Of a stretch of DNA of 40,615 nucleotides, positions 5,339-20,815 are shown one piece after another. Position 1 is the first letter of the stretch. Every line of letters starts with the position of its first letter. The position numbers and the translations under genes are program-made. Below the pieces are notes generated by a model, which was given only the letters and a program-made list of their open reading frames with translations, was not told where the DNA came from and did no database searches. This stretch comes from Burkholderiales bacterium (lineage in GTDB: Bacteria > Pseudomonadota > Gammaproteobacteria > Burkholderiales > Casimicrobiaceae), in the NCBI GenBank assembly GCA_025354165.1, contig JANXNI010000071.1, forward strand, positions 1 through 40,615. The letters run 5' to 3'.

Positions 5339-7543
5339 CTACGCCCGCGCCAGCTCGAACACCTGACTCAATTGCGCCGCGCGCCGCGACGTATCCTCAC
5401 CGCGCGCCTGAAGGTCGGTAATCACGGAGCGCACCACGTCAGCGGGCAGCCCGTGCGCCACGCTCTTCCTGACGATTTCTTCCGACATAGTTTGATCGGG
5501 CAAACGGATCGCGGCGCGCAGCCCGATCTGCACGGCGCCCGCTGCCTGCGAGCGAAAAAACGCCGCCCGATCTCGCGCAAACGCCTCACGCGAATCCGGC
5601 AGCAGCGGGCCGCGATAGAGCGCCAGCAGTGCCAGCGCCGTATGCGCCTGTGCGGAGTCGCGCGCCAGTGCGTCAGCGGTGGTCGTAACGCTGGCCGCCA
5701 CGCTGCTTTGCGCGGCCGATCCGCCCGCCGCGTTCGCGAAGTCGCGCAACTGCTCAACCTGCGCGAGCACGGCGTGGGTGTCGCACCAGACACGATCCAG
5801 ATCGAAGCCGATCTTGCCATCGTGTCGCGTCAACAGCGCCGCGTCGGGGAGCGATTGCCGCAGTCGTGTGAGCGCCACATCGAGCGAGCGCATCGCCTTA
5901 TCGCCTTCGGCTTCGGGCCATAACGCATCGGCCAGCCGTTGCGCGGAAACGGAGGCGGGAGCGTGGGCGGCGAGGTATTGCAGGATTTGCGTCGTTTTTG
6001 AATCGGCTTTTTTGCTGCCTTCCTGCGCGTTTGTAGCCAGTCCGTCGCAGGCAAAGCCATCGAATAGCCGCACCCGCAGAACCCACGGCCAGCTTACGGG
6101 GCGCGTGTCCGGCGGTGGCAGCGACAGGGTTCGCACATCGGCGGCGAGTGTGTCGTTGCCGAAGCCATGCGCGTAGAGCGCGGCGACCACCCGCTGCGCA
6201 ATCGGCGGGAAAATCTGCGCATGCATGGGCGGCAGTCGCCCGGCGCACACCTGCACATAGTTCTCCAGCGCGGAGCGCACCGCACCATGCTCGGTTTCGT
6301 CGGGCAGATTGTGTGCCGACGCTGCGCCATCCAGCGCCTCAGCCACGTCAATGAGCGCACACACCCGCTCATAGCCCAGACGATGGCCAGGCATGGACTT
6401 CGCGATCATGGACAGATAAATCGCCTTTGCTTCCGCCATGCGATGCAATCCCACCAGACTCGCCGCCGCAGAGTTTTCATAGAGCAACGCAATGGGCTGC
6501 GGCATTTCGAGCGCATGCGCAAGCTCCATGCAGCGCTGCGAATGCGCGAGCGCTGCCGCATACTCATTCGCACGCAGCGCGCGGTTGCCGCGACGGTAAT
6601 GCAACGCCAGCACCTGCGAGGCATCGGCCGGATCAACCAGCGCTTCCAGCTGATCCAGTCGCGTGTTGGTATGCGCTGGATCGCCCGCCCGTGTCGCCTG
6701 CTCAAAGGCAATGCGGCATGTGAAAAAACGCAGCCACTGCATGCCGAGCGCGTCGGCGTCCGCCATGAGCGCAGCGGCGGAAAACGTAAGCCCGCTACCG
6801 CCTTCTACGAGGCTCGCAAAGTAGACGCTGGCCAGTCCGGTAGCGCTGCGAAAAATCAGGCGCGTCACGGCCGGGATCGTCGCGTCATGGGTAAGCGGCG
6901 TGAGCACCTCGGTCGTCCGCCGCAGACGATCCGTATCGCGCGAGTGCTCGAACCACGGCGCAAGCATCGTCGCGGCACGCAGGCGGGCGCGACGGTTCAA
7001 CGTCTCATCGAGCGCCAGTGTGACCACGGCCTCACCGATCGCAGCCGCATCTGCCGTCTGCTGACCGAACAGCATGCGTGCCGCCAGCAGACCTGGTAGG
7101 CATTGGATCGCCTCGTCTTTGCTCAGCCGCGACTGCGTCGCTTCATACAGGGCATTGATGCGCGGGAATGCACGTTGCATCTCACCAAACCCGCTCCACA
7201 GCAACGTGCCGGTCCAATAAATGCCCGACAACGCGCGAAACTCGGCCACCTCATCGCCGCAGGCCTGCGCCGTCTGGGCGATTGCCACGAACGTCGGAAT
7301 CGCCGCCGAGCCCTGCGTCTCGCGCAGCTCATGGGCGGCAGCAAGCGCCTGTGGCAGATCAAGCAGTTGCGCGAGTCCAAGCGCCAGACACCAGGCCTCG
7401 ACCCTCGCGGTGCCGACGTGCGTTGACAGCGGCCCCAGCTCAGTACGTAACAAGTCACGCGCAGCATCCAGCGCACCGATTTGAATCAGCGCGTCAATGG
7501 ATTGCGCAGTACTGTCAATTAGACGCATGGTCACCGGACTCAT
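5339..7543 (-). CDS. SARP/BTAD-type transcriptional regulator with helical N-terminal half (paralogue 1)
   Basis: The protein has 734 residues. Residues about 1-480 are alpha-helical and Ala/Leu-rich, like TPR arrays. Residues about 490-590 form an OmpR-type winged helix as in SARP activators: the pattern RLADALWPEAEGDKAMRSLD, then VALTRLRQ (recognition helix), then a beta wing and a VWCDTHAV segment. Residues about 590-734 resemble the BTAD helical domain. Classical SARPs carry the winged helix at the N terminus, so the order is reversed. ATG 7543 has an AGGGA site upstream. The gene ends a minus-strand string led by the Calx-beta protein and operator 11924-11957. A paralogue lies at 16574. 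Targets are inferred. Confidence 0.8.
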   Translation of the reverse strand: MSPVTMRLIDSTAQSIDALIQIGALDAARDLLRTELGPLSTHVGTARVEAWCLALGLAQLLDLPQALAAAHELRETQGSAAIPTFVAIAQTAQACGDEVAEFRALSGIYWTGTLLWSGFGEMQRAFPRINALYEATQSRLSKDEAIQCLPGLLAARMLFGQQTADAAAIGEAVVTLALDETLNRRARLRAATMLAPWFEHSRDTDRLRRTTEVLTPLTHDATIPAVTRLIFRSATGLASVYFASLVEGGSGLTFSAAALMADADALGMQWLRFFTCRIAFEQATRAGDPAHTNTRLDQLEALVDPADASQVLALHYRRGNRALRANEYAAALAHSQRCMELAHALEMPQPIALLYENSAAASLVGLHRMAEAKAIYLSMIAKSMPGHRLGYERVCALIDVAEALDGAASAHNLPDETEHGAVRSALENYVQVCAGRLPPMHAQIFPPIAQRVVAALYAHGFGNDTLAADVRTLSLPPPDTRPVSWPWVLRVRLFDGFACDGLATNAQEGSKKADSKTTQILQYLAAHAPASVSAQRLADALWPEAEGDKAMRSLDVALTRLRQSLPDAALLTRHDGKIGFDLDRVWCDTHAVLAQVEQLRDFANAAGGSAAQSSVAASVTTTADALARDSAQAHTALALLALYRGPLLPDSREAFARDRAAFFRSQAAGAVQIGLRAAIRLPDQTMSEEIVRKSVAHGLPADVVRSVITDLQARGEDTSRRAAQLSQVFELARA

Positions 7544-7606
7544 AACGATATCCCTGTGATTATCGCGACATCTCGGACATATCTGACGAAAGCGTGTGCA
7601 GGAGGC

Positions 7607-8884
7607 TCAATTGGAAAACCCACCCGGTCCCAATGTTGTAAATAGTGACTGATATTTGCTCTGCGCCAGTTCACGGTTGAATTGCCCGGCAATTTGCAGG
7701 GTGAGCGCTTTCGGGCTGCCGAATTGAGGTTCGAGCACGAGGGTTTTTCCGGTGGCGTAGTAGCTCAACGTGAACCGTTGCCCCTGAATGGTTAGTCCCG
7801 TGACATGCGACATTTGCCTCGATCCGTCCACGGTTGCGCCAAAGTGATCGACCAGAAATGTCATCAACGCGGATTGCATCTCCGGTGTGATCGGTTGCAG
7901 GTTGTAGTTGAAATTTCCGGGCGATGCTGCATTCAAACTGCCGACCCACGGCAAGGGTTTTTGATCTCTTTTCAGCGAAAGTTTCTCGCCGCTCCACTGA
8001 AAATAGTAGTTCATCCACTCGGGCGTGATGTCGTCTAGTGTGGTCAGTCGCGTCTGGCCCACATCAAACGGCACAAGGTAAGCTGAATCGGTCTTCAGAT
8101 CGACCAACTCAAAAGCGAACGACTTGACTTTATCGGCATACGTGTAGCGCACCAGCGCGAACTGCCCTTTTGTGGGCCACCAGACGCGTGCCTGCCCAGT
8201 TGGCGATTCGTCGAAACTGAAGCCGCCAAAGTCTGGGTCGTTGTACACCCACTTGTGTTGCTTCAGCACGGCGTACGTCTGAAATTTAAGTGTGTTCAGA
8301 TCGAGAATGCCGTTGAGTTCCGGCAACATCATGAGCGTTCCTGTCTTGCCGAGATCACGTCCCATCGCTTGCGCATGCGCGCCCGCGTTGAGACCCTGCA
8401 ATTCACCGGGTTGTCCTGCGACGCTATCGAGAAATTGAAAGCGTGTTGCGGGAGCGCCGTTCAGGTGTTGCACCACAGGTTTACCGCTCTGATCGTTAAC
8501 CAGGTAAGTGCCGGTTTCGGTGCATACGAGAACGACAGGCGTGCCTTTGGAATACAGAAAGTGCGCCTCCAGCAAATCTCCGGCCATCCAGTCGCGCTTG
8601 CTGCCGTTGGTTGAATTCGGGCTGAAACTCACGGCGCGCCCGTTGTGCAGGAGTTTGTAGCGCGCATGCTTGTACGAGGCCAGCGGGTTCATGCTTGGAC
8701 CGCCGCCCCAACTTCGCTCGGAGCGAAACTCGATCTCGAATGGGCCAGCTTTGACGCCGGTACCGTTTGCAAGATGCGGGTAAAAACCCAAGGTGATGAG
8801 CGCGGCGAACGCAAGTCGTCGCAACCGCGCCGTCGTGAAAAACACGACGTCGAAAACGGAGTCGCTGAAGGTCGATAAGTTCAT
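7607..8884 (-). CDS. Exported protein of unknown function
   Basis: I do not recognise this 425-residue protein. A hydrophobic segment at about residues 22-41 (ARLRRLAFAALITLGFYP) looks like a signal peptide or anchor. The rest is rich in aromatic and beta-strand-like stretches without cysteine pairs. It starts 19 bases after the globin gene and ends 63 bases before regulator 1, all on the minus strand, so it is probably in the same transcript. Confidence 0.7.
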   Translation of the reverse strand: MNLSTFSDSVFDVVFFTTARLRRLAFAALITLGFYPHLANGTGVKAGPFEIEFRSERSWGGGPSMNPLASYKHARYKLLHNGRAVSFSPNSTNGSKRDWMAGDLLEAHFLYSKGTPVVLVCTETGTYLVNDQSGKPVVQHLNGAPATRFQFLDSVAGQPGELQGLNAGAHAQAMGRDLGKTGTLMMLPELNGILDLNTLKFQTYAVLKQHKWVYNDPDFGGFSFDESPTGQARVWWPTKGQFALVRYTYADKVKSFAFELVDLKTDSAYLVPFDVGQTRLTTLDDITPEWMNYYFQWSGEKLSLKRDQKPLPWVGSLNAASPGNFNYNLQPITPEMQSALMTFLVDHFGATVDGSRQMSHVTGLTIQGQRFTLSYYATGKTLVLEPQFGSPKALTLQIAGQFNRELAQSKYQSLFTTLGPGGFSN

Positions 8885-8903
8885 GACGCCGCCGAGGGCA
8901 AAA

Positions 8904-9329
8904 TTATGCGGCTAACTGTTCAGCGGGTTTGGCTGCGGCCGCTTTCATCGTGTCGGCCAACACGCCATAAACATCAATCCACGCGGCCTTCACTTCCGGC
9001 GTAAACGCGTCGCCCAACCCGCGTTGCAAGGTATCGATCAAGGCCGCTGCGACGGTGTCGTAGTGATGATCTTTGACGCCATAGCCGCCGTGCCGCACAC
9101 CCAAACCTTTGAGGACTGGCATGAGCGTGCCCGGACGATCCAGATTGCCTACTGCGACGCCGATCATGGTCATCAATTTGCCGCCTTGTTCTTTCATATT
9201 GCCTTTGAACAAGGCCTTGAGCGAGGGATCGAGGTCAAATAATTTGGCATAAAACAACTCCGCCGCGAGGTCGCGGATAGGGAGCACTTGTTGCCACGAT
9301 TGCTGGACGATAGGGGTTGACGCGTTCAT
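8904..9329 (-). CDS. Single-domain bacterial globin (Vitreoscilla haemoglobin type)
   Basis: Haem protein of 141 residues predicted to bind O2 or NO in the cytoplasm. The family pattern is clear: an N-terminal SWQQV helix, LFYAKLFDLDPSLKALFK, and the proximal haem histidine His80 in VRHGGYGV, followed by HYDTVAAALIDTL and a final helix with AAWIDVYGVLADTM. There is no reductase domain, so it is not a full flavohaemoglobin. Its place between exported proteins and regulator 1 suggests an oxygen- or NO-related input, which is inference only. Confidence 0.88.
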   Translation of the reverse strand: MNASTPIVQQSWQQVLPIRDLAAELFYAKLFDLDPSLKALFKGNMKEQGGKLMTMIGVAVGNLDRPGTLMPVLKGLGVRHGGYGVKDHHYDTVAAALIDTLQRGLGDAFTPEVKAAWIDVYGVLADTMKAAAAKPAEQLAA

Positions 9330-9412: not shown

Positions 9413-9742
9413 CTACCAGAATCGCCACCAGGGTTTTTCGGACAAAGTCGCAGTGGTCGAAGCTGATTCGGTCAGCGGATTGCCGATATGAATCGTGTGC
9501 TCCACATCCTCTTTCGGATGCCAGCCATTGTTTAGCCGATCATTGAGATATTGCATGGCCGTTTGCGACTGATAGACGGCATCCTTACGTGTTGCCTTCG
9601 TCGCATCATCGGCGAGCAGGCCTTTAACCATCGCGACGTAGTGTTCGCCGCCACGCGTCAGTTTGACCGACCACATCGTGCCTTCGCGGCTGGGGCCACT
9701 GGGCATTTTGAAATGTGCCGCGAGACCATTCGTCACACTCAT
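9413..9742 (-). CDS. Small protein of unknown function
   Basis: Not recognised. From ATG 9742 the product has 109 residues; a longer frame from 9775 would overlap the end of the Calx-beta gene by 20 bases. The sequence is polar, with no signal peptide, and ends in Lys-Pro-Trp-Trp-Arg-Phe-Trp. Neither start has a convincing ribosome-binding site, so translation may be coupled to the upstream gene. Confidence 0.55.
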   Translation of the reverse strand: MSVTNGLAAHFKMPSGPSREGTMWSVKLTRGGEHYVAMVKGLLADDATKATRKDAVYQSQTAMQYLNDRLNNGWHPKEDVEHTIHIGNPLTESASTTATLSEKPWWRFW

Positions 9743-9755
9743 TGACCAGCGCTGT

Positions 9756-11834
9756 TCAGACACGACGGCCACCATCGATTTGGGTTGCGACTTTGGCTTT
9801 GAGCGCGCGTCGCTCGCACAAAGTAAAGCCGATCACGCCCAGCATCACCAAGAGCAGCGCCCAAGGGCTATCGACCGGAACCGGCGTAGCACCAGTCACT
9901 ACGGTGGGTCGCACAAATACGTCATCGTTGAGGATCGTGCCGGTCGCGGTGGTTTTGGGTGCCAGAGCACCGCTGATCGTGGCGTTGGTTACATTGGTCA
10001 TGGTGACCGTAAACGTTTCGTCCGCTTCCAGTGTGGTGTCACCGATGATGGTGACCGGCAGACTGCCGGCCGTCGCGCCAGCGGCAATCGTTACCGTGCC
10101 CGCGACTACCGCGACGTAATCGCTGCCCGCAGTCGCGGTTCCGTTCGCGGTCGAATAAGTAATGGTGACGCCCCCGACCGGGGCCGCGCTGCTTAATGTG
10201 ATCGGGAAATTCAGCACGCTGGTGCCCGCATTGCCCTCGGTGATGCTGGCGTCGCTTAATGTCAAAACAGGTAGCACGACGGCGTCATCGTTTTGAATCG
10301 TTCCTGTTGCCGTAGCTGTACCAACTGTTGCGTTGGTGGCGTTGCTGATCGTTACGGTGAAGGTTTCGTTGGGTTCGACTGTGGTGTCACCGTTAATGGT
10401 GACAGGCAAGCTGCCCGTAGTGGCGCCTTGCGCAATCGTCACGCTGCCCGCAACCACTGCGACGTAATCGCTCCCGGCGGTTGCCGTTCCGTTCGCGGTT
10501 GAGTAGGTAATCACTACACCACCGGACGGCGCAGCGGCGCTCAAGGTGACCGGGAAGTTGAGCACGCTGGTGCCTGCGTTGCCTTCAACAATGCTGGCGT
10601 TGCCGACGCTCACGACAGGCGCTGTGGGTGCCACAATAGCGCTGGATTCGAAAGCACCGATATCTGCTTGTGCACCCACTACGCGCGGAAAGCCCGTACC
10701 GCGTTGATCGTTAGCCGGGATCGTGCCAGTCGTCGGGCCTGCGTTGATCGCCGGGCTGCCTGCCTGCAGCGCATGGGTTTGTGTTAGGCCACCGTTGTTG
10801 GCAAGTGCGGCGAGCAGCGGATTGCTGTTGATCAAATCGCCCGCTGCGGTGAAACCGCAGGTGTTGCCGCTGTCGAGGTTGTTGCCGCCCGAGTTGGCTG
10901 CGGAAAGCCCAGCGCAATTAATACCTGCTGCAGGATTTGCGACGATACTGCCGCGAATGATGAAAACACCGGTACCGAACCGGCTCAATTGTCCAGAAGT
11001 GCTAACGCTTGAATTAGCCGTAATCGTGGTGAAACTGATCGTCGTGTCGCCACCCGCCACCTCGATACCTGCACCGCTTCCGTCGCCGATAGTGTTGCCC
11101 GAAAACGTCGAGTTCGTAATATTCAGGGTGCCCAGGCTCTCGATGCCGCCTCCACCCGCGCCCACGCTTGACGTGCTGTTACCGCTGATCGTGCTGTTAG
11201 TGATGTTGGCGGTTCCGGTTGCGTTAAGACGGATGCCACCGCCGCCGTTTGCAGCCGAATTATTGGAAACGGTACTGTCGGTCAGGTTCAGCGTGCCAGC
11301 AATGAATAAGCCGCCCCCCTGTTTGCTTGTAAGAGTGGCATTATTGTTGGTGACGAGCACGCGGGTGAGACTGAGAGTGCTGGATGTCGTTGCGAAAATG
11401 CCCGCTCCTTGCGACGAAACACCGCCCGTAATGGTCAAGTCATTCATGGCTACATTGATACCGTTCTGGACGAAAACGAATACCTGAGCGACGCCGTTGC
11501 CGCTAATAATCGTGCTGCCAGTCCCCACGCCGTTGACGGTGATGTTCGACCCCAGACCCAGATTGCTTGCCAGAGTGATCGTGCCGCTCGGCACGTTGAT
11601 CACGTTGGTCCCGCCGATTGAATTCGCCGTCTGGATTGCCGCACGCAGAGTGCAGACACTGCCCGCGGTGGCACAGATGTTGTCAGATGGAATGGCATCT
11701 GCGGCATCGCCCAAATCGTTCACGGTGATGATGGCGGCGTAGAGTTGCATCGAAAGTACCGTGAGCACAAGTGCCGTGAGACGCGTAAGGACGCCGCGCA
11801 TCGACGCGATGCGTGGAAAAGTGTGCAAGGACAT
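9756..11834 (-). CDS. Surface/secreted protein: CSLREA-like start, beta-helix, two Calx-beta repeats, IPTL-CTERM-like tail
   Basis: The protein has 692 residues. A signal peptide covers about residues 1-33. It is followed by a CSLREA-like segment (CTLRAAIQTANS), then Asn/Ser/Thr-rich parallel beta-helix repeats and a choice-of-anchor Q segment (GGLTQTHALQAGSPAINAG). Two nearly identical Calx-beta domains lie at about 405-515 and 520-635; each contains STANGTATAGSDYVAVVAG, and the repeat is visible in the DNA. The C terminus, PVDSPWALLLVMLGVIGF then a basic tail, fits an IPTL-CTERM sorting signal. The likely role is cell-surface adhesion or matrix. Operator 11924-11957 points at it, leaving a leader of about 80-90 bases. 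Confidence 0.85.
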   Translation of the reverse strand: MSLHTFPRIASMRGVLTRLTALVLTVLSMQLYAAIITVNDLGDAADAIPSDNICATAGSVCTLRAAIQTANSIGGTNVINVPSGTITLASNLGLGSNITVNGVGTGSTIISGNGVAQVFVFVQNGINVAMNDLTITGGVSSQGAGIFATTSSTLSLTRVLVTNNNATLTSKQGGGLFIAGTLNLTDSTVSNNSAANGGGGIRLNATGTANITNSTISGNSTSSVGAGGGGIESLGTLNITNSTFSGNTIGDGSGAGIEVAGGDTTISFTTITANSSVSTSGQLSRFGTGVFIIRGSIVANPAAGINCAGLSAANSGGNNLDSGNTCGFTAAGDLINSNPLLAALANNGGLTQTHALQAGSPAINAGPTTGTIPANDQRGTGFPRVVGAQADIGAFESSAIVAPTAPVVSVGNASIVEGNAGTSVLNFPVTLSAAAPSGGVVITYSTANGTATAGSDYVAVVAGSVTIAQGATTGSLPVTINGDTTVEPNETFTVTISNATNATVGTATATGTIQNDDAVVLPVLTLSDASITEGNAGTSVLNFPITLSSAAPVGGVTITYSTANGTATAGSDYVAVVAGTVTIAAGATAGSLPVTIIGDTTLEADETFTVTMTNVTNATISGALAPKTTATGTILNDDVFVRPTVVTGATPVPVDSPWALLLVMLGVIGFTLCERRALKAKVATQIDGGRRV

Positions 11835-11923: not shown

Positions 11924-11957
11924 ACGTTAGTTGCCGCGACCCTACAAAACTCCTACA
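11924..11957 (-). promoter_or_regulatory. Operator/promoter site 1 of the proposed SARP-like regulon
   Basis: Read on the minus strand: TGTAGGA (11957-11951), 4 bp, TGTAGGG (11946-11940), 9 bp, CTAACGT (11930-11924). Heptamer direct repeats 11 bp apart just upstream of a -10 hexamer (TAACGT) are the layout bound by SARP and other OmpR-type activators. The predicted start lies about 83 bases before the Calx-beta start codon. The same layout recurs at 12017, 14781 and 20227. Confidence 0.65.
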
Positions 11958-12016: not shown

Positions 12017-12050
12017 TGTAGCGGAAACGTAGGGTAGTCACGTTTACTCT
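12017..12050 (+). promoter_or_regulatory. Operator/promoter site 4 (degenerate copy)
   Basis: TGTAGCG (12017-12023), 4 bp, CGTAGGG (12028-12034), 9 bp, TTACTCT (12044-12050). The spacing equals that of the three strong sites, but each element has substitutions; the TA...T positions of the -10 are kept. It points at the four-gene string starting at 12114. The gap 11835-12113 between divergent genes thus holds two back-to-back sites. Confidence 0.5.
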
Positions 12051-12113: not shown

Positions 12114-12689
12114 ATGAACGCTAGATGTGATGTGAAGAGCAAGCGCGTATTGCTTAACCTGGCAGCGGTCGGTTTTGCCTTGCTCTGCATCGGTTCGACT
12201 TCAAGCCAGACGATAGTGGCGCGACCGTATCAAGTCACATGGCCGGTTGGCTGGGAGGTTAGCTATCTGCCCTCGCCCACGACCAACAGTGGCAAAAGTC
12301 TGGGTGGCGAGCGGGTACGTGTGTTGCTCAAAGCCGATGACACTGCCGTGGTCGCCGCGATTGAGCTCACCTATTTTCCGCGCAGCGACAACGGACGGGC
12401 CAGCCTTCCGGACGAGTTCGATCAGCTCCGCAGCACTATACAAGCGGCCTACGAGCGGCAAAAATTTGAAGTGAATCTCACGCCTGCGCAATTGCTTGCC
12501 ATAGGTGGTCAGTCGGCGCTGACCACCGAGTTATCTGTCGTTAGCGACAGCATGCGCTTGAAGCAGTGGATGGGTGTGGCGCTGTCACCGCAATTTTTAT
12601 ATTCGTTGACTTTCACCGCCAGCGAAGAAAGTTTTGCGCGCTATCGCCCGCAGTTTGACGCCGCCAAGCAGTCAATTCTCTTCAAATAG
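12114..12689 (+). CDS. Exported protein of unknown function, PsbP/DcrB-like fold possible
   Basis: The protein has 191 residues with a signal peptide at about 1-32 (VLLNLAAVGFALLCIGSTSSQ). The mature part runs through PYQVTWPVGWEVSY, a charged middle and a C-terminal segment (SLTFTASEESFARYRPQFDAAKQSI) that recalls PsbP/DcrB or DUF1795-type proteins, in which the final helix follows a beta sheet. This fold call is tentative. It is the first gene of a plus-strand string of four exported proteins, and its stop overlaps the next start by one base. Confidence 0.7.
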   Translation: MNARCDVKSKRVLLNLAAVGFALLCIGSTSSQTIVARPYQVTWPVGWEVSYLPSPTTNSGKSLGGERVRVLLKADDTAVVAAIELTYFPRSDNGRASLPDEFDQLRSTIQAAYERQKFEVNLTPAQLLAIGGQSALTTELSVVSDSMRLKQWMGVALSPQFLYSLTFTASEESFARYRPQFDAAKQSILFK

Positions 12690-13546
12690 TGATCCCACTT
12701 TCTATGTCCACCTTTCGATTTTTGCTCGCTGTGTTTGTCGTTGCAGTTACGCCTGCTGCGCACTCCGAGCCCAAAGTTAGCATCGGCACCTGTGGGGACG
12801 CAGACATCCTGCTCGAATTCAAGGGGGCGACTGCGAAACATCCGTTGATCGAGGAACTAAGCGAGGCGATGAAAGAAAGAAGCGCCGTGAAATTTGCATA
12901 TAACTCGATTGAAGGCGGACATTCATCCCCTTCGCGTTATCTTCGCGACCGACGGACTAAAGCACTGCATCCTGTTGGGACTGACGACTACAAAACACTG
13001 CGTTGCACTGAAAAGCGGGGTGAAACCTATCTCATGATGGCGATGCATTGCGGCGGTTCGGGGTGCGTCTCATACGGCAACCGGCTACTCTGGGTCAATC
13101 GTTGGCGCTATCTCACCAGGAACGGAGAACTGTCTGCCAAAGCGACCGACTGCGAATGGCAGCGTCTGGTGCAAGTGCTTGGCGCCGCATTTGAGATTGA
13201 AGATGAAGCCATCGCAACACTTCTGGAAACGGGGGATATCGCAACGTTCGATACGCCGCCGAAGAAAAAACGGCGCCTACCCGCTAACACGTTGCCGAAG
13301 GGCAAGGAGTGCGAAACGATAGGTGCCATTTACGAAGAGTGCGTGGAGGCGCAACGTGATCACTGTTCAGACCCTGCTGACTTCAATATGAAGCTGTCGA
13401 ATGCCTCCCGTGGAAATTACTACGCGATCGCGGAGCTAAACAAAAAATTCGATAGCGTCGCTTTTGAGGCCGCGTGTTTTGCAGTTTGCAGCAAGGGTAG
13501 AAGACCTCTCACCCAGAAGGCGATCACCGCGAAGTTTTGCGGTTAG
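12689..13546 (+). CDS. Exported cysteine-rich protein of unknown function
   Basis: Not recognised. The frame starts with GTG at 12689 (TAGTG overlap with the previous stop); ATG 12704 (MSTFRFLLAVFVVAV) gives a cleaner signal peptide ending at AHS. The mature part has many cysteines (GTCGD, HCGGSGCVSYG, TDCEW, KECETIGAIYEECVE, DHCSD, CFAVCSKG), fitting a disulphide-rich periplasmic or secreted protein. The basic PPKKKRRLP stretch near the middle is unusual for an exported protein. Confidence 0.7.
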   Translation: MIPLSMSTFRFLLAVFVVAVTPAAHSEPKVSIGTCGDADILLEFKGATAKHPLIEELSEAMKERSAVKFAYNSIEGGHSSPSRYLRDRRTKALHPVGTDDYKTLRCTEKRGETYLMMAMHCGGSGCVSYGNRLLWVNRWRYLTRNGELSAKATDCEWQRLVQVLGAAFEIEDEAIATLLETGDIATFDTPPKKKRRLPANTLPKGKECETIGAIYEECVEAQRDHCSDPADFNMKLSNASRGNYYAIAELNKKFDSVAFEAACFAVCSKGRRPLTQKAITAKFCG

Positions 13547-13570: not shown

Positions 13571-14044
13571 ATGTGCACAACACGTCATATCGGACACTTT
13601 TTTGCGGCCGCTCTCGCATCCGTTGCAATATTACTCAGCGCCGAAGGCAACCACATGGACTCCTGGTACACGCCGTCTACCCAGCCCCCAGCGGGATCAA
13701 TCAGCAACCTCCGATTGCACACTGATTTTGAGGTAGTTCAACCGGACAAACTCGCCAGCGTCGAAGCGTTATTGAAAAATCATTCGCTTGTGGAGATTGA
13801 CGCTGCTACCGCTGAATCGCTCGCTGGCAAGAAGATGGTGACCGCAGGCGAACAGCGGCGCTATCTCGTGCGTTCTCTTCATTTCGACGCACACGGCGAA
13901 TACACCGTCGAACGCGATCAAACGTCGCTCCGAATCCATCACCGCTCGCTCGGGTTCGATGCTCCGATAGTTCGTCAAGGTCTGGTGGTATTGCTTGGCG
14001 GGCCGCCCAGGGAAGTATTCGTGTCGTGCTCCATGGCGCGCTAA
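13571..14044 (+). CDS. Small exported protein of unknown function
   Basis: Not recognised. The product has 157 residues, with an N-terminal signal-like segment (HFFAAALASVAILLSAEG) and a polar body of predicted beta strands ending LLGGPPREVFVSCSM. It starts 24 bases after the previous stop, and the next gene begins 2 bases after its own stop, so it is most likely cotranscribed. Confidence 0.62.
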   Translation: MCTTRHIGHFFAAALASVAILLSAEGNHMDSWYTPSTQPPAGSISNLRLHTDFEVVQPDKLASVEALLKNHSLVEIDAATAESLAGKKMVTAGEQRRYLVRSLHFDAHGEYTVERDQTSLRIHHRSLGFDAPIVRQGLVVLLGGPPREVFVSCSMAR

Positions 14045-14046
14045 CG

Positions 14047-14703
14047 ATGTTTGTCTCTCGATTTGCATTCGTTGTGTTTGCCTTCTTTTTGGCGCAGGCA
14101 GATCCCATTAGCGGTGCTGGATACGGTGGTGACCCCGACCTCCTGATCGAGCCCCAAGACGAGGCAACGACACGCCTGGTAGCCGAAGAGGTTCGCACGG
14201 CGATGCCTGCGGGACAAGGGTGGCGTTTCAACTTGGACGTGCGTCATAACGATCAGCAGCATGAATTGCTGGGTCTACACAACGAACAGGAGCCCGTGTT
14301 GAACAAACGTACCTTAGATGTGATCAAGGCGTTTCTCCTTAAGAAGGGACAGCGTTGCACGTACTCCCAGAAATTTAATAACAACCCGTGCTTTACGACC
14401 GAGCACTTCAAGTTCTATCTGAATCCCGATTCGGGCGGCCCGCACCAGCACCCACAGTGGAATATGAATTGTGACCCGGAAAGAGGCGATTTCAACACGC
14501 TAGTTATTCGCCGACGAATGCTCGATGATCGTGACGATGGGCGAAATCAGTACGCCTATATTGCCTTCATCAATGCCGACGATATTCGGGTGGCATCGGC
14601 GTTTGGCGACCATCCGCCCCCTTTGCAGTTGCGCGAATTGGCAGTGAACGCAGTCAAGGAACTGCTGGCATCAATGGCAGTAGAGCGCATAAAGCCGTCG
14701 TAG
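14047..14703 (+). CDS. Exported protein of unknown function
   Basis: Not recognised. From ATG 14047 the product has 218 residues and a signal peptide MFVSRFAFVVFAFFLAQADP; an upstream ATG at 14026 would overlap the previous gene. The mature protein contains CTYSQKFNNNPC, an HQHP segment and a long C-terminal helix (LRELAVNAVKELLASMAVER). It is the last gene of the four-gene string. No terminator hairpin was obvious before the next operator at 14781. Confidence 0.65.
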   Translation: MFVSRFAFVVFAFFLAQADPISGAGYGGDPDLLIEPQDEATTRLVAEEVRTAMPAGQGWRFNLDVRHNDQQHELLGLHNEQEPVLNKRTLDVIKAFLLKKGQRCTYSQKFNNNPCFTTEHFKFYLNPDSGGPHQHPQWNMNCDPERGDFNTLVIRRRMLDDRDDGRNQYAYIAFINADDIRVASAFGDHPPPLQLRELAVNAVKELLASMAVERIKPS

Positions 14704-14780: not shown

Positions 14781-14814
14781 TGTAGGGGGTTTGTAGGGTG
14801 GCTGGCCCTAACGT
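14781..14814 (+). promoter_or_regulatory. Operator/promoter site 2
   Basis: TGTAGGG (14781-14787), 4 bp, TGTAGGG (14792-14798), 9 bp, CTAACGT (14808-14814). Both heptamers are identical here, making it the cleanest copy. It points at the delta-60 repeat gene. The predicted leader of about 88 bases is close to that of site 1. Confidence 0.68.
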
Positions 14815-14908: not shown

Positions 14909-16537
14909 ATGGCTTCAGACGCGTCTACATTGTTCGCACGACAGCACTGTCGTCGCGGATTCACCCCGATTTTCGCGACGCTGATCGCGGTAGTTCTGTC
15001 TAGCGCTGTCGCTGCGATTCCTCTGCAGATACCCGGTAACTTCGATCCGGTTTTTACCAAGACCAGTAACTTGGCACTTGGCAATGGGACGGCCCAGGCG
15101 CACGCGACGGCGCTGCAAACGGACGGTAAGATCGTGCTGGTGGGCCAATGCGCAAACGGCGCTAACTTTGATTTTTGCCTCGCGCGACTCCTTACCGACG
15201 GTACGTTGGATCCCGCCTTTACCGGCCCTGGAGCTGCCGCAGCCGGCAGCTTCATGTTGCCGACCGGGGGAGCTGCAGGTGATAGCGGCGCCAACGCGAT
15301 CACGCTCCAACCCGATGGCAAAATCATCGTCGCTGGCGGCTGCTTCAACGGTGGTGCCAACTACGATTTTTGCATCGCGCGGCTCCATCCGAATGGCTCG
15401 CGCGACGCAAGTTTCGTTGGCCCTGGCGGCACGGGCAACGGTTTCTTCCCGTTATCGATTGGCGCTTCAAGCGATTTCGCCAACGCCGTCGCATTGCAGT
15501 CTGACGGAAAAATCGTTCTGGCCGGTCAATGCGCTGGCGTTACTAACACCGACTTCTGCGTGGCGCGGCTCAATTCGGACGGCACCTTTGACGCCAGTTT
15601 CGTCGGCCCGAATGGCAACGGTAACGGCAAATTCTTTTTGCCCATTGGACCGAAAGAAGATGGCGCGCATGCCATTGCTCTGCAGCCCGATGGCAAGATT
15701 GTGCTCGCTGGCACGTGCACTAACAGCACAGACGTTGAAGAGTTTTGTGTGGCGCGGCTATACGCGGACGGCTCGCTCGACATCGGGTTTGACGGCCCCG
15801 GTGTAGCGGGCAACGGGAAATTCACATTTGCTGTGGGCGGCGTTAGTGATGAGGCGAGATCGCTATTGCTGCAACCAGACGGCAACATCGTAATCGGGGG
15901 CGCGTGTGCGGCTCCGTCGGTAGACTTTTGTGCGGCGCGACTGTTGGGTGGCAGTGGCGCGTTCGATACCAGTTTTGTCGGCCCTGCCGGAACCGGCAAC
16001 GGCAAATTCTCATTTCCTGTCGGCGTGAACATAGACATCGCGCAAAGCGCAGCGCTGCAAGCGGACGGCAAGATGCTGCTGGCGGGTAAATGCGTCGTCA
16101 ATGGATTCAACTACTTTTGCCTTGCGCGGCTCAATGGCGACGGATCGCTAGACACCACATTCGACGGTCCATCGGGCGCAGGCAACGGGAAGGTGTTTCT
16201 GTCGATCGGCAGCTCCAACGATGTCGCCACTAGCGTTGCGATTCAGTCCGATGGCAAGATTGTCGTCGCTGGCTATTGCAGCAACAGCGGCGTCGACAAA
16301 TTTTGTATTGCCCGACTGAGTGGTGGCCCGTATGGCAATAAAAACTGCTCAATGGATATTGATGGCGACGGTAAGGTGCTAGCGACGACCGACGCGGTGT
16401 TGCTTGCGCGTGTTGCGCTCGGCGTCACTGGCAATGCGGTGATGGCAGGCGCATTGGGTGTCGGCGCAACCCGCACAACATGGACTGGGATTCGCGACTA
16501 TCTGGTCTCACAATGCGGGATGAACCTCGCTCCGTGA
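14909..16537 (+). CDS. Secreted delta-60 repeat protein with dockerin-like C terminus
   Basis: From ATG 14909 the product has 542 residues. The longer frame from 14798 would start inside operator site 2 and is unlikely. The signal peptide ends near SSAVAAI. Seven delta-60-type repeats follow, each with a core like LQSDGKIVLAGQC, a nearby FCVARL and a closing D..FVGP; the two cysteines in each probably form a disulphide. The last 63 residues hold a dockerin-like Ca2+ loop (DIDGDGKVLATTDAVLLAR) shared with the giant protein at 34180. The fold is a likely beta-propeller at the cell surface; the ligand is unknown. Confidence 0.82.
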   Translation: MASDASTLFARQHCRRGFTPIFATLIAVVLSSAVAAIPLQIPGNFDPVFTKTSNLALGNGTAQAHATALQTDGKIVLVGQCANGANFDFCLARLLTDGTLDPAFTGPGAAAAGSFMLPTGGAAGDSGANAITLQPDGKIIVAGGCFNGGANYDFCIARLHPNGSRDASFVGPGGTGNGFFPLSIGASSDFANAVALQSDGKIVLAGQCAGVTNTDFCVARLNSDGTFDASFVGPNGNGNGKFFLPIGPKEDGAHAIALQPDGKIVLAGTCTNSTDVEEFCVARLYADGSLDIGFDGPGVAGNGKFTFAVGGVSDEARSLLLQPDGNIVIGGACAAPSVDFCAARLLGGSGAFDTSFVGPAGTGNGKFSFPVGVNIDIAQSAALQADGKMLLAGKCVVNGFNYFCLARLNGDGSLDTTFDGPSGAGNGKVFLSIGSSNDVATSVAIQSDGKIVVAGYCSNSGVDKFCIARLSGGPYGNKNCSMDIDGDGKVLATTDAVLLARVALGVTGNAVMAGALGVGATRTTWTGIRDYLVSQCGMNLAP

Positions 16538-16573
16538 TGCGATCAACTTTGCACTTGTACCCGTCGTGAAGAC

Positions 16574-18775
16574 CTAAGCGCGAGCCAATTCAAACACATT
16601 GGTTAGCTGCGCGGCCCGTCGCGATGAGTCATTGCTGCGCGCTTGCAAATCGGTGAGCACTGAGCGCACGACATCGGCGGGCAAGCCGTGCGCGACACTT
16701 TTGCGCACGATCTCTTCAGCCACCGCCGGGTCGGACAATCGAATCGCGGAGCGCAAACCGATCTGCGTCGCTCCCGCCACTTGCGAGCGGAAAAAAGTGG
16801 CGCGCTCCCGCGCAAATGCTTCTCGCGAGTCTGGCAATGCAGGGCCGCGATAGAGGGAGAGCAATGCGAGTGCAGTGTGGGCTTGTGCGTGGTCGCGGAC
16901 GGCATTGGCGTCGGTCATCGCGCTCATTTCCGGGCCCGCTTGAGCACCATTAACGGTTGCGAGCTCGCGTAACTGTTCCACATGTACGAGCGCCGCGTGG
17001 GTGTCGCACCACACACGACTTATGTCAAACCCGATTTTCCCTTCGCTGCGAACCAGCAGCGCAGCATCGGGCAATTGTTGGCGCAAGCGGGTAAGCGCCA
17101 CGTCGAGCGAGCGCATCGCCTTGTCACCTTCGGCCTCTGGCCACAAGCTGTCAGCCATGCGTTGAGCAGAAACCGCAGCCGGGGCATGCGCCGCCAGATA
17201 TTGCAATATTTGCATCGATTTTGATTCGCCCTTTTTGCCACCCTCGTGGGTCACCGTTGTTGCCAGTCCCTCGATGGCAAACCCATCGAACAATCGTATG
17301 CGCAGTAGCCACGGCCAGCACACGGGGCGTGTATCGGGTGGCAAGAGGCCCTGCGATCGCACGCCCTCGGCAAAGGCATCTGTGCCCAGACCGTGCGCGA
17401 ATATTGCCGCCACCAGCCGACTGGCAATTAGCGGCAGCGTCTGCGTTTCCAGCGACATCAATCGGCCGCCACTGATGCGCAAATAGTCGGCGAGCCGAGC
17501 GCGCAACGTGATCAAGCGAGTCTCAGCTAAACGGTCGTCGGTCAACCTCACAAGTTCAAGCTGATCGAGCATCGTGGTGGCGTCAATCAGTGCGCACATT
17601 CTTTCGTGCACCAACCTTTGTCCCGGCATCATGTTGACAAGAATTCCGGTATACATGGCGTGCGCCTCGGTCAGCCGGTTGAGTCCGAGAAGCGCGCTTG
17701 CGACGCCCGCCTGATAAAGCGCCGCCATGGTATCCGGCATCTCCAGTGCCCGTACCAGCTCCATGCAACGCTGTGCCAAGGCGAGCGCCACGGCGTACTC
17801 GCGGGCACGCATCGCATGGCGGCTGCGCCCGTAGCGCACCAGCAATACTTGTGACGGTTCCGCCGGATTCTCGACGGCTTCGAGTTCATTCAATCGTTCG
17901 GCCGCCAGCGCGTGATTGTTGCCACGGCTGGCCAGTTCGAAGGCATTGCGACGCACGAAAAAGCGCAGCCACTGGGGATACCCGGGATCGTCGTCAGTCG
18001 TGCTTTTCGTAGTGCCGACACGACGACCATTGAGCCCGGTATCGCTAGTGCTGACGTAAACACCCAGGTGCGTTTGTGCGAGCGTAATGGCGGCACGATA
18101 AATCACGCGCGTGATCATCGGAATCGATGTATTTGCCTCAAGTGTTGCCAGCGCATCGGCGGTCGTGCTCATGCGCGCAGCGTCGCGCGAGAAGTTAAAC
18201 CAGGGGGCGAGCATCGCCGCAGCACGCAGCCGGGCGGTGCCCGAGAGTCGTTCATCGAAAACAAGTATGACGAGCGCCTCACCGACGAGGGCTGACTCTG
18301 CGGCGCTGGCGCCAAACAACAGGCGGGACACCAGTAATCCTGGCAAACACTCAACCGCCGCCTCGTCGCTTAAGCGTCTGTTTAATTTATCGTAGAGACT
18401 ATTGATGCGCGGGAATTCGCGCTGCATGTCGCCAAAGCCGCTCCACGCTAAAACGCCTGTGCAATAAACGCCGGAGAGCGCACGCAATTCCGCGATCTCG
18501 TCGCCGTGCGCACGTGCCGTCTGTGCAATCGCCATGAACTGGGCAATCGCAGGTGTACCTTGCATTTCGCGAACGACCTGCGCAGCTTCAATCGCCAGCG
18601 GCAAATCAAGCAGCGCGGAGAGCCCAAGCTTCTCGCACCAATGCAATACCTGCGCGCTGCCAAAATGAGTAGAAAGTGGACCCAGCTCGCTGCGCAACAT
18701 GTCCCCGGCGGCTTCGTGCGCGCCCGAATTGATGAGCGCATCAATTGCTTGCGCAGTAGCGTCGATTCGCAGCAT
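16574..18775 (-). CDS. SARP/BTAD-type transcriptional regulator (paralogue 2)
   Basis: This 733-residue protein aligns with the regulator at 5339 along its full length. The winged-helix core is nearly unchanged: GDKAMRSLDVALTRLRQ, containing the recognition helix, is identical. The C terminus SVAHGLPADVVRS and the final FELARA are also shared. The helical N-terminal half is more divergent, as expected if the two sense different inputs but bind the same DNA. It ends a minus-strand string (19301, 18928, then this gene) that begins at operator site 3, giving the same layout as regulator 1. Confidence 0.8.
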   Translation of the reverse strand: MLRIDATAQAIDALINSGAHEAAGDMLRSELGPLSTHFGSAQVLHWCEKLGLSALLDLPLAIEAAQVVREMQGTPAIAQFMAIAQTARAHGDEIAELRALSGVYCTGVLAWSGFGDMQREFPRINSLYDKLNRRLSDEAAVECLPGLLVSRLLFGASAAESALVGEALVILVFDERLSGTARLRAAAMLAPWFNFSRDAARMSTTADALATLEANTSIPMITRVIYRAAITLAQTHLGVYVSTSDTGLNGRRVGTTKSTTDDDPGYPQWLRFFVRRNAFELASRGNNHALAAERLNELEAVENPAEPSQVLLVRYGRSRHAMRAREYAVALALAQRCMELVRALEMPDTMAALYQAGVASALLGLNRLTEAHAMYTGILVNMMPGQRLVHERMCALIDATTMLDQLELVRLTDDRLAETRLITLRARLADYLRISGGRLMSLETQTLPLIASRLVAAIFAHGLGTDAFAEGVRSQGLLPPDTRPVCWPWLLRIRLFDGFAIEGLATTVTHEGGKKGESKSMQILQYLAAHAPAAVSAQRMADSLWPEAEGDKAMRSLDVALTRLRQQLPDAALLVRSEGKIGFDISRVWCDTHAALVHVEQLRELATVNGAQAGPEMSAMTDANAVRDHAQAHTALALLSLYRGPALPDSREAFARERATFFRSQVAGATQIGLRSAIRLSDPAVAEEIVRKSVAHGLPADVVRSVLTDLQARSNDSSRRAAQLTNVFELARA

Positions 18776-18927
18776 AGGTCTTCGGTGATCTGTTTACGGT
18801 CGTACGTCGCCGGCTGCGAGCACGTCATCGCGCCCTGAAAATCAGGCGCGGCCGATTACGTTATAGACGGAATGCCAGCTTCCAACATGACAGAACCCCG
18901 AGGACGGCGGGTGGCGCCCGCTGCGAC

Positions 18928-19194
18928 TTAACGGTCGTATGCTGCCACGGCGATGACGGCGACATTGATGCCGTCGTAGTAAATCGTGGATGCCGGCGTA
19001 GGCGGGGACTGCTCACCGGCGACAAGCCGTATCGCTTCCGCTGGCGTAGATGCAGACACCGTGGCGGTGGTCTGGGCAGGCACTTCATCGGCGTGAACGA
19101 ATTTGGGCGCGAACACCAAGGCGCTGGCGGCTGTGATGGACAAACATGCAATAGCTTTGAAGCTCAAGAAAGTGTGCGAGGTGTGTGATTTCAT
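18928..19194 (-). CDS. Small exported protein of unknown function
   Basis: The product has 88 residues with a clear signal peptide (FKAIACLSITAASALVFAPKFVHA) and a mature part of only about 53 residues that is Ala/Thr/Pro-rich and ends in NVAVIAVAAYDR. It could be a secreted peptide or small periplasmic factor; no family is recognised. It lies between the 19301 gene and regulator 2, which makes a signal or sensor role conceivable but untested. A lone TGTAGGG half-site (19275-19281) lies upstream without a second heptamer. Confidence 0.6.
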   Translation of the reverse strand: MKSHTSHTFLSFKAIACLSITAASALVFAPKFVHADEVPAQTTATVSASTPAEAIRLVAGEQSPPTPASTIYYDGINVAVIAVAAYDR

Positions 19195-19300
19195 GGAAAT
19201 TTGAAGATAGGAGTTGTGAAATTGCTACGTGAGTAGACGTAACGGTTGAGCCTGATATGACAGCGCAGACGCCGCCCTACATGCTTAAGGAGAATTCGAA

Positions 19301-20173
19301 TTAAGGCGCGACAAACCAGACACCCTTGATAAGGCGAAGCGTGTAATTGGACGACTCAGCGCCGTTTTTTGAGCGCTCCGTGAGCTTGGCCTCGGCACTA
19401 TCGGAATCGACTGTGAGGCTGTCGAATTCCGCCGTATTTGGATTCGGTGAAAGCTTCAAAAATTCCAGCAATTGCGCTGCGTTCGGGCCGTCAAGCTGCG
19501 TCGCATGATCAGCCATCAACACCGTTTTGAGCGCGGCTTTGTCGCCTGCTCGGGCAGCGCGCAAATATTCGGCGATCGCCTTGCCTTGAGGTGTCGCCCA
19601 CGCCGTTTCGCCAGCCGCATCAGGCGTGCGCGGCGTCAGCATGGTGGTGTCGAACCGTACATCAAAGCTCAAGGTATTTTTGAATTCGCTGTGCTTGCCG
19701 CCGCTGGTCACATGCCCGGAAAATGCGGTCGGATTGAACCGAGATATCTCCGCTTTGTAGTCGCTCGTATTGGCTCCGCCTTTTAGTGTCCCGACATTGA
19801 AGTCGACGGAGCGAATTGTGTTGCCTGCGTCTAGCGTGAACTCGAGCGTTTGTATGCTGTTGTTACGCATCTCGCTTGAGCGGGCGAAGGTGTCACTGAT
19901 CGCTTTTGCCGACAGCGGCTTGTCGGTGAGCGTCAAAATCGTCTCGGGCTTATTGTCAAAGAGCGACCGCCTCATTACGGCGTAAGCATGATTGAATCCG
20001 GTCAGGTTGCCGTTTACAGTGATGCTGCCGGTGGCTGTGTGGGTGCCGGGCGCGTCGCTCTGCGTGTGCACTTGTTTGCTTAACCCACACAACACCACCA
20101 CGCACAGACATGCGGCGATTTCGCGGGAGAGCGGCGGACGAATGGGTTCACAGTGTTTCATGGGAGCGCTCAT
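19301..20173 (-). CDS. Exported protein of unknown function, possible NTF2-like C-terminal domain
   Basis: The open frame extends to 20347, but operator site 3 lies inside that extension, so the start is ATG 20173 (or 20161), giving about 290 residues. The signal sequence is REIAACLCVVVLCGLSKQVHT. The middle is beta-rich. The final 90 residues or so (AIAEYLRAARAGDKAALKTV, then LTERSKNG and the ending LRLIKGVWFVAP) resemble NTF2-like/DUF4878-type domains. It is the first gene of the string ending in regulator 2. Confidence 0.68.
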   Translation of the reverse strand: MSAPMKHCEPIRPPLSREIAACLCVVVLCGLSKQVHTQSDAPGTHTATGSITVNGNLTGFNHAYAVMRRSLFDNKPETILTLTDKPLSAKAISDTFARSSEMRNNSIQTLEFTLDAGNTIRSVDFNVGTLKGGANTSDYKAEISRFNPTAFSGHVTSGGKHSEFKNTLSFDVRFDTTMLTPRTPDAAGETAWATPQGKAIAEYLRAARAGDKAALKTVLMADHATQLDGPNAAQLLEFLKLSPNPNTAEFDSLTVDSDSAEAKLTERSKNGAESSNYTLRLIKGVWFVAP

Positions 20174-20226
20174 GACAGTGGGGAAAATCGGCGAAATGCG
20201 TCGGAACGGACGTGCCGCATGACCAC

Positions 20227-20260
20227 ACGTTAGGCGGCGCGACCCTACATTCCGCCTACA
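20227..20260 (-). promoter_or_regulatory. Operator/promoter site 3
   Basis: Read on the minus strand: TGTAGGC (20260-20254), 4 bp, TGTAGGG (20249-20243), 9 bp, CTAACGT (20233-20227). It lies 54 bases before ATG 20173 and points at the string 19301-18928-regulator 2. Bases TCGC follow the second heptamer, exactly as in site 1. Confidence 0.67.
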
Positions 20261-20317
20261 ACGCCGCATTGCGACGAAAACGTTGGCGCATTCGTTTGCC
20301 GAATTCGTCTTTGGCTG

Positions 20318-20340
20318 TGTAGGCAACGCGTTGCTGCCAT
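20318..20340 (+). promoter_or_regulatory. Possible half-operator upstream of the 20363 gene
   Basis: TGTAGGC (20318-20324), 9 bp, CTGCCAT (20334-20340), which keeps 4 of 7 positions of CTAACGT. The upstream heptamer is not recognisable (GTCTTTG). This may be a decayed site or chance. Confidence 0.25.
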
Positions 20341-20362
20341 CAATCACTCTAAGGAGAGTTCC

Positions 20363-20815
20363 ATGTTGAAACCACTTTTGGCCGCAGTTGGCGCATTCGG
20401 CCTCACGTTTCTCACAATGGCACCGGTGTTAGCGGTCGCTCCCGCAGCCGAAACAGCGTTTGTTGAAGCTTATAAAAAGGCCATCGAAACCAGCGACAAG
20501 AAAACCTTACAAGGGTTTTTGTACACCGTTGGTGCGAACCCGATGGCACTGGATTTCTACAAGGAAATGGTGACGATGGAGGCAGGCAGCAAAGTGACAG
20601 AAATCACGCTGACCGAGCTTAACGCCGAGGACAAGCAAAAAATCTCCACGCAAAAGGGCCCCGACGGCAAGCCCAGCAAGAGCAACATTCCGATTGTGAA
20701 AAAGCTCAGCTTCAAGACGGAGACCAAATCTGCCAATGGCAGCAGCTCAGGCAACAGCAGCGTGTTCGTCGGTGAAGTGGGTGGCAAGCTTATGATCGCC
20801 GTGCCCGCGAAATAG
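20363..20815 (+). CDS. Small exported protein of unknown function
   Basis: The product has 150 residues, a signal peptide MLKPLLAAVGAFGLTFLTMA and a lysine-rich mature part. Segments AFVEAYKKAIETSDKKTLQG and FVGEVGGKLMIAVPAK suggest a small alpha/beta fold of the NTF2-like kind, similar in layout to the end of the neighbouring 19301 protein. A good AAGGAGAG ribosome-binding site lies at 20351-20358. It is divergent from the 19301 string. Confidence 0.7.
   Translation: MLKPLLAAVGAFGLTFLTMAPVLAVAPAAETAFVEAYKKAIETSDKKTLQGFLYTVGANPMALDFYKEMVTMEAGSKVTEITLTELNAEDKQKISTQKGPDGKPSKSNIPIVKKLSFKTETKSANGSSSGNSSVFVGEVGGKLMIAVPAK

Follow-up and report, generated by a model that had tools for sequence, protein, structure and literature searches.

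The DNA analysed here, a 40,615-nt stretch from a Casimicrobiaceae genome (the window), very probably carries a SARP-kind switch in a new form, with a predicted regulon of exported and surface proteins. Its two regulators, R1 and R2, are very probably SARP-like activators that use paired TGTAGG half-sites to switch on genes whose products are exported or lie at the surface. Related sites beside many distant relatives of the regulators suggest that the switch is of the type best known from antibiotic-making Streptomyces. In the parts of the literature consulted, SARPs are treated as Streptomyces antibiotic switches, and no description of a Gram-negative SARP operator was found, judged by titles and the first lines of abstracts.

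Promoter Sites and the Genes Behind Them

Three sites in the window match TGTAGGNNNNNTGTAGGGNNNNNNNNNCTAACGT exactly, with the consensus TGTAGG-N5-TGTAGGG-N9-CTAACGT, and a fourth resembles them.

11924..11957 (-): operator/promoter A, exact match; repeats 11951-11957 and 11940-11946, -10 TAACGT at 11924-11929; precedes 9756-11834
14781..14814 (+): operator/promoter B, exact match; repeats 14781-14787 and 14792-14798, -10 TAACGT at 14809-14814; precedes 14909-16537
20227..20260 (-): operator/promoter C, exact match; repeats 20254-20260 and 20243-20249, -10 TAACGT at 20227-20232; precedes 19301-20173
12017..12050 (+): decayed operator D; precedes the DUF4946 gene, with TANNNT kept as TACTCT (TAACGT in sites A-C)

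The initial annotation proposed a family of four operators, and the family is real. The pattern had 0 matches in 100 dinucleotide shuffles, and an unbiased window scan for any hexamer repeated 11 bp apart with TANNNT at a fixed place returned exactly sites A, B, and C. These scans and shuffles rule out a chance family of sites. The absence of a further full copy was also borne out: a search of the whole window that allowed up to 3 mismatches gave no additional site. The four sites are not equal, however. Site D has 6 mismatches among 20 fixed bases and was missed by a profile built from 13 strong sites. Decay is the best reading of this copy, since its ortholog in the sister genome G016 (L054 11517-11550, -) is strong, with 2 mismatches; the G016 orthologs of operators A and C have 1 mismatch each.

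TGTAGGG and TANNNT are separated by 10 bp, the second half-site and the -10 element begin 17 bases apart, and positions T1, A2, and T6 of the -10 are invariant in 14/14 sites. If transcription starts 7 nt past the -10, the predicted leaders are 83, 88, 47, and 57 nt long, near the 50-90 bases first estimated. The repeats overlap the -35 position, and a -35 hexamer of good quality is absent, by reading, from these promoters, which therefore look activator-dependent. The overlap would also suit repression, in which R1 and R2 bind the sites and the repeats over -35 block the polymerase. This alternative is quite improbable, given the lack of a good -35 hexamer and the activation exerted by SARPs of the same geometry, as described in the portions of two studies consulted (PMC10936776, PMC10972967).

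The genes under the putative control of these promoters, and their neighbours, are as follows.

9756..11834 (-): exported protein with a CSLREA-like N end (below the curated cut-off), choice-of-anchor Q, two Calx-beta domains, and a CTERM-like tail; behind operator A
9413..9775 (-): small gene, function not predicted; behind operator A, kept in G016
8904..9329 (-): globin (Pfam PF00042); behind operator A
7607..8884 (-): gene of unknown family; behind operator A; G016 ortholog (76%), distant copies in 2 others of the 64 family genomes
12114..12689 (+): exported DUF4946 protein (Pfam PF16304); first gene behind site D
12689-13546, 13571-14044, 14026-14703 (+): three string genes with signal-peptide-like starts, from their translations; no Pfam matches
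14909..16537 (+): exported protein of delta-60 repeats (DUF5122), its tail dockerin-like by reading; behind operator B, start codon picked by reading
19301..20173 (-): exported protein; behind operator C, its G016 counterpart also behind a site
18928..19194 (-): 88-aa peptide whose start resembles a signal peptide; lies between R1 and the operator C gene, with a G016 counterpart
20363..20815 (+): 150-aa exported protein; the window copy is preceded by one half-site only

Orthologs of the 150-aa gene have a site directly in front in G016 and G010, and the gene is present without a site before it in G008. The predicted targets are exported proteins, not an antibiotic cluster.

Two Divergent SARP-Like Regulators

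Two regulators are encoded in the block, as initially claimed; they are 60% identical and have the same recognition helix.

16574..18775 (-): regulator R1, 733 aa; helical N-terminal part of ~480 aa, winged helix at ~490-590, C-terminal BTAD-like part
5339..7543 (-): regulator R2, 734 aa; ends the gene string that operator A precedes

An OmpR-type winged helix (PF00486) scores above cut-off in 5/5 close regulators and spans 518-571 in R1. Among these proteins, the winged helix-turn-helix (wHTH) domain is 66-84% identical vs. 38-63% in the N-terminal part, and the recognition helix reaches 82-100%. The BTAD domain (PF03704) has no Pfam call in any of the five. In hhalign, the close regulators align with a wider-family profile, A4, at a probability of 99.6 across the wHTH and the beginning of the BTAD, and 26/26 members of A4 match PF03704. 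The wHTH of R1 follows the helical domain, at about 490-590 of 733, rather than occupying the N-terminal position of SARPs. Judged from sequence, R1 and R2 are SARP-like but divergent, their DNA-binding domain lying towards the C end. The earlier assignment to a SARP/OmpR-type system holds for repeat geometry and the winged helix; it calls for caution over domain order, which is reversed relative to Streptomyces SARPs, and over the BTAD, which Pfam does not call. No receiver domain was matched by Pfam in R1, R2, or their 3 orthologs, or in the 20 window proteins scanned. The profile of the five close regulators matched no solved structure, and the AlphaFold model of R1 is poor over the wHTH and usable only for the helical N- and C-terminal parts.

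Relation to Known Regulators

PhoB/OmpR response regulators have the wHTH fold and 11-bp direct repeats; they differ in their receiver domain, which is unmatched in R1 and R2. HilA of Salmonella likewise combines an OmpR-type wHTH with a C-terminal part that is helical, and its hexamer repeats are spaced by 5 bases. The closest likeness is to AfsR, a Streptomyces SARP, with which R1 and R2 share an OmpR-type wHTH and perhaps a BTAD, their own C-terminal part being BTAD-like but without a Pfam call; profile A4 matches AfsR chains 8hvr, 8k60, and 8jke over both domains.

According to the parts of the publications consulted, SARP operators are built of directly repeated heptamers, in units of 11 bp that overlap -35 (PMC10972967, PMC10936776), an arrangement also found in the window sites. 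In SARP promoters the 3' repeat stands 8 bp from the -10, compared with 10 bp here; counted as 11-bp units from -40 to -19, the window sites would equal the AfsR box (afs box) (PMC10936776). The sites share with AfsR the 11-bp direct repeats over -35, the poor -35, and, with a start 7 nt past the -10, the box at about -40 to -19. AfsR R92 contacts T-38 (PMC10936776, as excerpted). The T of TGT at that place is invariant in 14/14 sites, and the arginine aligned by eye with R92 is invariant in the five close regulators. Unlike AfsR, this system has the half-site TGTAGG, Gram-negative hosts, and exported-protein targets instead of antibiotic clusters. R1 and R2 also depart from Streptomyces SARPs in their reversed domain order, the DNA-binding domain lying near the C end after a helical part of ~480 aa. 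EmbR of Mycobacterium shares the wHTH-BTAD core, matched by profile A4 (2fez), but differs in a C-terminal FHA domain (PMC10936776) and in its targets.

Proposed Mechanism

Two wHTH domains would bind side by side on the two TGTAGG half-sites, 11 bp (one helical turn) apart, covering the place of the missing -35 element, and the bound regulator would recruit RNA polymerase to the TANNNT -10. The genes switched on would be those for the CSLREA-like/choice-of-anchor, delta-60-repeat, and DUF4946 proteins and an IPTL-CTERM-type giant. Operator A heads the string that ends in R2, and operator C lies ahead of R1, so autoregulation of both genes is probable. Sensing is likely to be the task of the helical N-terminal domain. 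If this mechanism is correct, Gram-negative SARP-like regulators gain a readable operator, and sequence alone suffices to predict the genes they control, which here encode surface and exported proteins of unknown function.

The Motif Beyond the Window

The initial annotation took the regulon to be self-contained. This is wrong because a further perfect repeat core, the fourth of the genome, precedes a large exported protein on contig C93; G016 likewise has sites outside the block, on C117, C207, and C225. Chance matches are rare, with 4 perfect repeat cores in the whole genome vs. about 0.14 expected. All four precede genes read as exported proteins, which upholds the exported targets first suggested.

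A search of 64 family genomes for the motif, with at most 3 mismatches, located it in 4 and in none of the other 60, and those 4 are also the genomes that encode a full-length close relative of the regulator (Fisher 1.6e-6, without tree correction); the motif was thus not lost from any genome that keeps a full-length close regulator. This co-occurrence rests on 4 genomes, and significance is out of reach for an independent-pairs test. In a LeuA tree (one gene, 13 genomes), the 4 motif genomes form two groups, with a single clade rejected; the tree needs 2 changes, of which the well-supported branches force only 1. Elsewhere in the 64 genomes, the 13-site profile gave no hit with an E-value under 0.09.

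Of the genomes that lack a close regulator, 9 retain the 150-aa target gene, and the motif is found in 0/9, which for this gene rules out that the motif tracks target genes rather than the regulator. The same result bears on whether the sites arose as duplicates of a single promoter that no dedicated regulator serves. Such an origin would fit the spacer bases TCGCG common to some sites and the orthology of several sites in G000 and its sister genome G016. It is nonetheless extremely improbable, as the motif is missing where this gene persists without a close regulator, and flanks vary while half-sites and -10 bases persist, including in G008, G010, C117, and C207.

A Related Operator in the Wider Family

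Distant relatives of the regulators have the operator TGTA[A/G]-N6-TGTA[A/G], with the same -10 spacing as the window sites. It was recovered by a looser TGTA scan; in 11 pairs of related loci, no exact repeated hexamer with TANNNT was common to both members. The operator was defined on 78 loci and then checked on 74 others, which contained 43 TGTA pairs at 11 bp vs. 6-15 at other spacings and, when a -10 was required, 15 vs. 0-1. A clear intergenic operator is present in 14/78 and 20/74 loci, and related operators occur near distant regulator relatives in other families and phyla. The window alone could not have revealed these.

Direct repeats of six bases at 11 bp are common for OmpR-family response regulators, and the sites might belong to another regulator of the OmpR/PhoB type, with R1 and R2 its mere neighbours or its targets. 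This is improbable, however. The motif tracks R1/R2-type regulators across the 64 genomes, the 20 window proteins scanned have no matched receiver domain, and, in unrelated bacteria, members of the wider SARP-like family have an excess of related operators around them, with the regulator as the selected constant.

Beyond the activation by R1 and R2 favoured here, the evidence tips slightly towards a DNA code shared by Gram-negative SARP-like regulators. In such a code, two direct copies of TGTA[A/G]G would be spaced by one helical turn and set at a constant distance from the -10, and the residue just before the recognition-helix RLR would help to determine the half-site. Many of these regulators would adjoin and activate large exported or surface proteins, and the window would represent the TGTAGG branch. 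Among the matches listed, this genome's other SARP-like regulators have no related operator nearby. Perfect TGTAGG cores among the distant relatives occur only at L085/L094, a weak observation on its own; the genomes of these loci have no second perfect core and therefore no larger regulon. A threonine just before the RLR pairs with TGTAG in 6/6 loci from three lineages, and a histidine in that place pairs with TGTAA in 18/19, a count that left out loci with mixed or other half-sites (TGTAC, TGTAT). If the proposed mechanism is correct, this putative specificity residue is directly testable.

Operator sites in the window

Three operator sites in the window match the motif TGTAGGNNNNNTGTAGGGNNNNNNNNNCTAACGT exactly, as the initial annotation had placed them, and all mismatches below are counted against this pattern:

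11924-11957, minus strand: operator A, exact match to the motif
14781-14814, plus strand: operator B, exact match to the motif
20227-20260, minus strand: operator C, exact match to the motif

The observation of the sites stands. No further place in the window has three or fewer mismatches, and 100 shuffles of the window give no match. A sequence-blind scan of the 40.6 kb for any hexamer repeated at 11 bp with TANNNT at a fixed place returns operators A, B, and C only. The weaker site proposed at 12017 (plus strand; operator D) has six mismatches, and a profile built from the strong sites does not recover it. Its ortholog in the sister genome G016 is strong, and operator D is therefore read as a decayed copy of a site.

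The 14 sites compared include the weak one. In them, TGTA is invariant in the first repeat except for one C at the first base, and in the second except for two. T1, A2, and T6 of the TANNNT -10 element are invariant; on reading, a good -35 element is absent at the sites. If transcription is assumed to start 7 nt after the -10 element, the first repeat begins at -40 and the predicted leaders are 83, 88, 47, and 57 nt. The string behind operator A ends with the gene for the SARP-like regulator R2, and its paralog R1 is encoded behind operator C, an arrangement suggestive of positive feedback. A globin gene (8904-9329), kept in G016, lies among the exported-protein genes of the operator A string.

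The regulator proteins

The SARP-like reading of the regulators and their operator is well supported. Pfam places PF00486 at about 515-570 in R1 and R2 and calls no BTAD in the five close regulators, which form an isolated, fully supported clade on a long branch. Their winged helix-turn-helix (wHTH) is 66-84% identical vs. 38-63% for the N-terminal part; the recognition helix is 82-100% identical, and the same in R1, R2, and the G016 protein. A profile of the five matches no solved structure. By hhalign, it aligns with a 26-member family (probability 99.6, E 4.8e-25), the alignment covering the wHTH and the beginning of the BTAD. BTAD is present in 26/26 members of this family, and the family's profile has matches to the solved structures of AfsR and EmbR. 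An AlphaFold model of the regulator (mean pLDDT 69.5) is helical in its N-terminal and C-terminal parts; its wHTH region is unreliable.

Co-occurrence of regulator and motif

Among 64 genomes of the family, the window's own (G000) included, full-length close relatives of R1 and R2 occur besides G000 in G016, G008, and G010 (50-62% identity to R1). Seven further genomes have distant, mostly partial matches (24-40% identity). With up to three mismatches, the motif is found in exactly the four genomes with close regulators (4, 7, 1, and 1 sites in G000, G016, G008, and G010) and in 0/60 others; the reversed motif matches three times, in two other genomes. Loss of the motif where close regulators are kept, named beforehand as a refutation, is not seen in these genomes, and the proposed scan of whole and related genomes yields few random matches. 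A sequence-only profile of the 13 sites recovers 13 matches with E below 0.001 across the 64 genomes. All lie in the four genomes with close regulators, which follows by construction for a profile built from these sites; the next best match has E 0.09.

A sample of 399 genomes of the order, which overlaps the family set, includes G000 and G010 and leaves out G008 and G016. Only G000 and G010 have matches with at most two mismatches. Six other genomes have one three-mismatch match each; these are noise, because the reversed control matches about 37 genomes (our count from the table).

In a LeuA tree of 13 of the 17 genomes of the genus (one without a LeuA match and three with fragments were left out), the motif genomes split into two groups; the AU test rejects grouping them as one clade. 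The well-supported branches of this one-gene tree, which is not a species tree, force only one change. With so few independent events, an independent-pairs sign test cannot reach significance.

Extent of the predicted regulon and its targets

The 4.72 Mb draft genome to which the window (contig C40) belongs has four sites with up to three mismatches. The fourth (C93, 2572-2605; two mismatches) precedes the gene of a large exported protein, so the regulon reaches beyond the block and is not self-contained as first described. Four exact copies of the 13-base repeat core occur in the genome vs. about 0.14 expected. The G016 counterpart of the C93 protein, which shares its neighbour and its start, matches choice-of-anchor U; it also has an IPTL-CTERM match above the Pfam and below the NCBIfam cut-off.

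Predicted targets in the window are a CSLREA-like/choice-of-anchor Q/Calx-beta protein, a delta-60-repeat protein, a DUF4946 protein, and small exported proteins, export being judged by reading signal-peptide-like starts. Relatives add a CSLREA protein (G010) and an IPTL-CTERM-type giant (G016). In G008 and G010, the regulator gene is immediately followed by the site, and the next gene has a signal-peptide-like start. The G016 contig that carries genes in common with the window has neither R1 nor the delta-60-repeat gene between them. The gene for a 150-aa exported protein (20363-20815), another predicted target, is present in 13/64 genomes, nine of them without close regulator or motif; two of the nine, G017 and G018, have distant regulators. 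A site directly precedes it in G016 and G010, a single half-site in the window, and no site in G008, though G008 has a close regulator.

Further observations concern single loci. In G016, a site precedes an ankyrin-like membrane gene (L057, C117, 6529-7694) adjoining genes read as VgrG-like (type VI secretion), and the counterpart of the CSLREA-like gene (L054, C98, 11765-12148) is short or degraded with its operator intact. Similar dockerin-like C-terminal tails occur on otherwise different exported proteins (window 14909-16537, L203 4902-6629, L058 5399-7006); the first two genes are near SARP-like regulators, and the third shares its contig with a site.

A related operator near distant regulators

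The more interesting result lies outside the window, where a related operator occurs near distant SARP-like regulators of Gram-negative bacteria. No description of it was found in the open-access literature searched, most subscription journals being outside the scope, which is weak evidence of novelty. Two short peptide patterns, scanned against 84,980 species represented by a single genome each, gave 74 loci (three known close relatives and 71 distant); with seven more fetched from the family, 78 loci entered the operator count as set 1. TGTA[AG]-N6-TGTA[AG] occurs 13 times, 11 of them with A2 and T6 of a -10 element at the window's spacing. TGTA[CT] pairs occur eight times (four with -10), and 22 control permutations together 114 times (five with -10; our sums).

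Because this pattern had been noticed after looking, a second set was tested. The profile of the 26-member family matched 64/369 genomes of the class, with 105 listed matches by our count. Regions covering 82 of these (the first 78 plus four more) were fetched, 80 in all; after six that overlapped earlier loci were dropped, 74 loci remained (0.91 Mb). TGTA[AG] pairs occur 27 times (12 with -10), TGTA[CT] pairs four times (none), and controls 134 times (13). At spacings 8-14, all TGTA pairs number 9, 10, 10, 43, 15, 6, and 11, and those with a -10 element 0, 0, 1, 15, 0, 1, and 1. If the -10 element may also lie one base nearer, a choice made after set 2 was seen, intergenic sites at spacing 11 number 15 (set 1) and 22 (set 2) vs. 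0-2 at other spacings from 8 to 15. T stands at the first -10 base, which the search did not demand, in 9/15 and 17/22 of these.

Such sites are held by 14/78 and 20/74 loci, several of which are near relatives of one another. Set 2 contains 30 intergenic pairs; by our count, 11 of them have a called regulator gene no more than 125 bp away, and for 13 the script, whose gene calls are crude, called no regulator gene. The stretches fetched around four other SARP-like regulators of G000 (L235, L250, L257, L287) contain no intergenic pair. At L201 2959 and L202 8654, in G017 and G018 of the same genus, TGTAAT-N5-TGTAAG sites accompany distant SARP-like regulators and precede large exported proteins.

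A candidate specificity residue

The residue before RLR (RAR in L085 and L094) was compared with the half-site type. Loci with two TGTAG half-sites have T in 6/7 cases (window, L061, L063, L085, L094, L105) and H in the seventh (L224), and loci with two TGTAA half-sites have H in 18/20 and L in 2/20. Fisher's test gives 4e-5 when loci are counted and about 0.009 for hand-grouped lineages. Loci whose helix could not be read were left out, as were those with mixed or other half-sites (L064, L065, L066, L081, L088, L111, L116, L226, L248, L280). Since several left-out loci carry H, this residue is not limited to TGTAA half-sites. On this exploratory comparison, the position is a possible specificity residue. 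Aligned by eye, it corresponds to AfsR S91, which touches the template-strand phosphate at -35 according to PMC10936776. The same paper reports that the neighbouring R92 contacts T-38 and that T88 contacts template-strand G-36. The exception, at L224 8916 (G587), is a TGTAGG-type site with TAACGT 40 bp behind the gene of a SARP-like regulator of 1160 aa, with H at this position of its helix.
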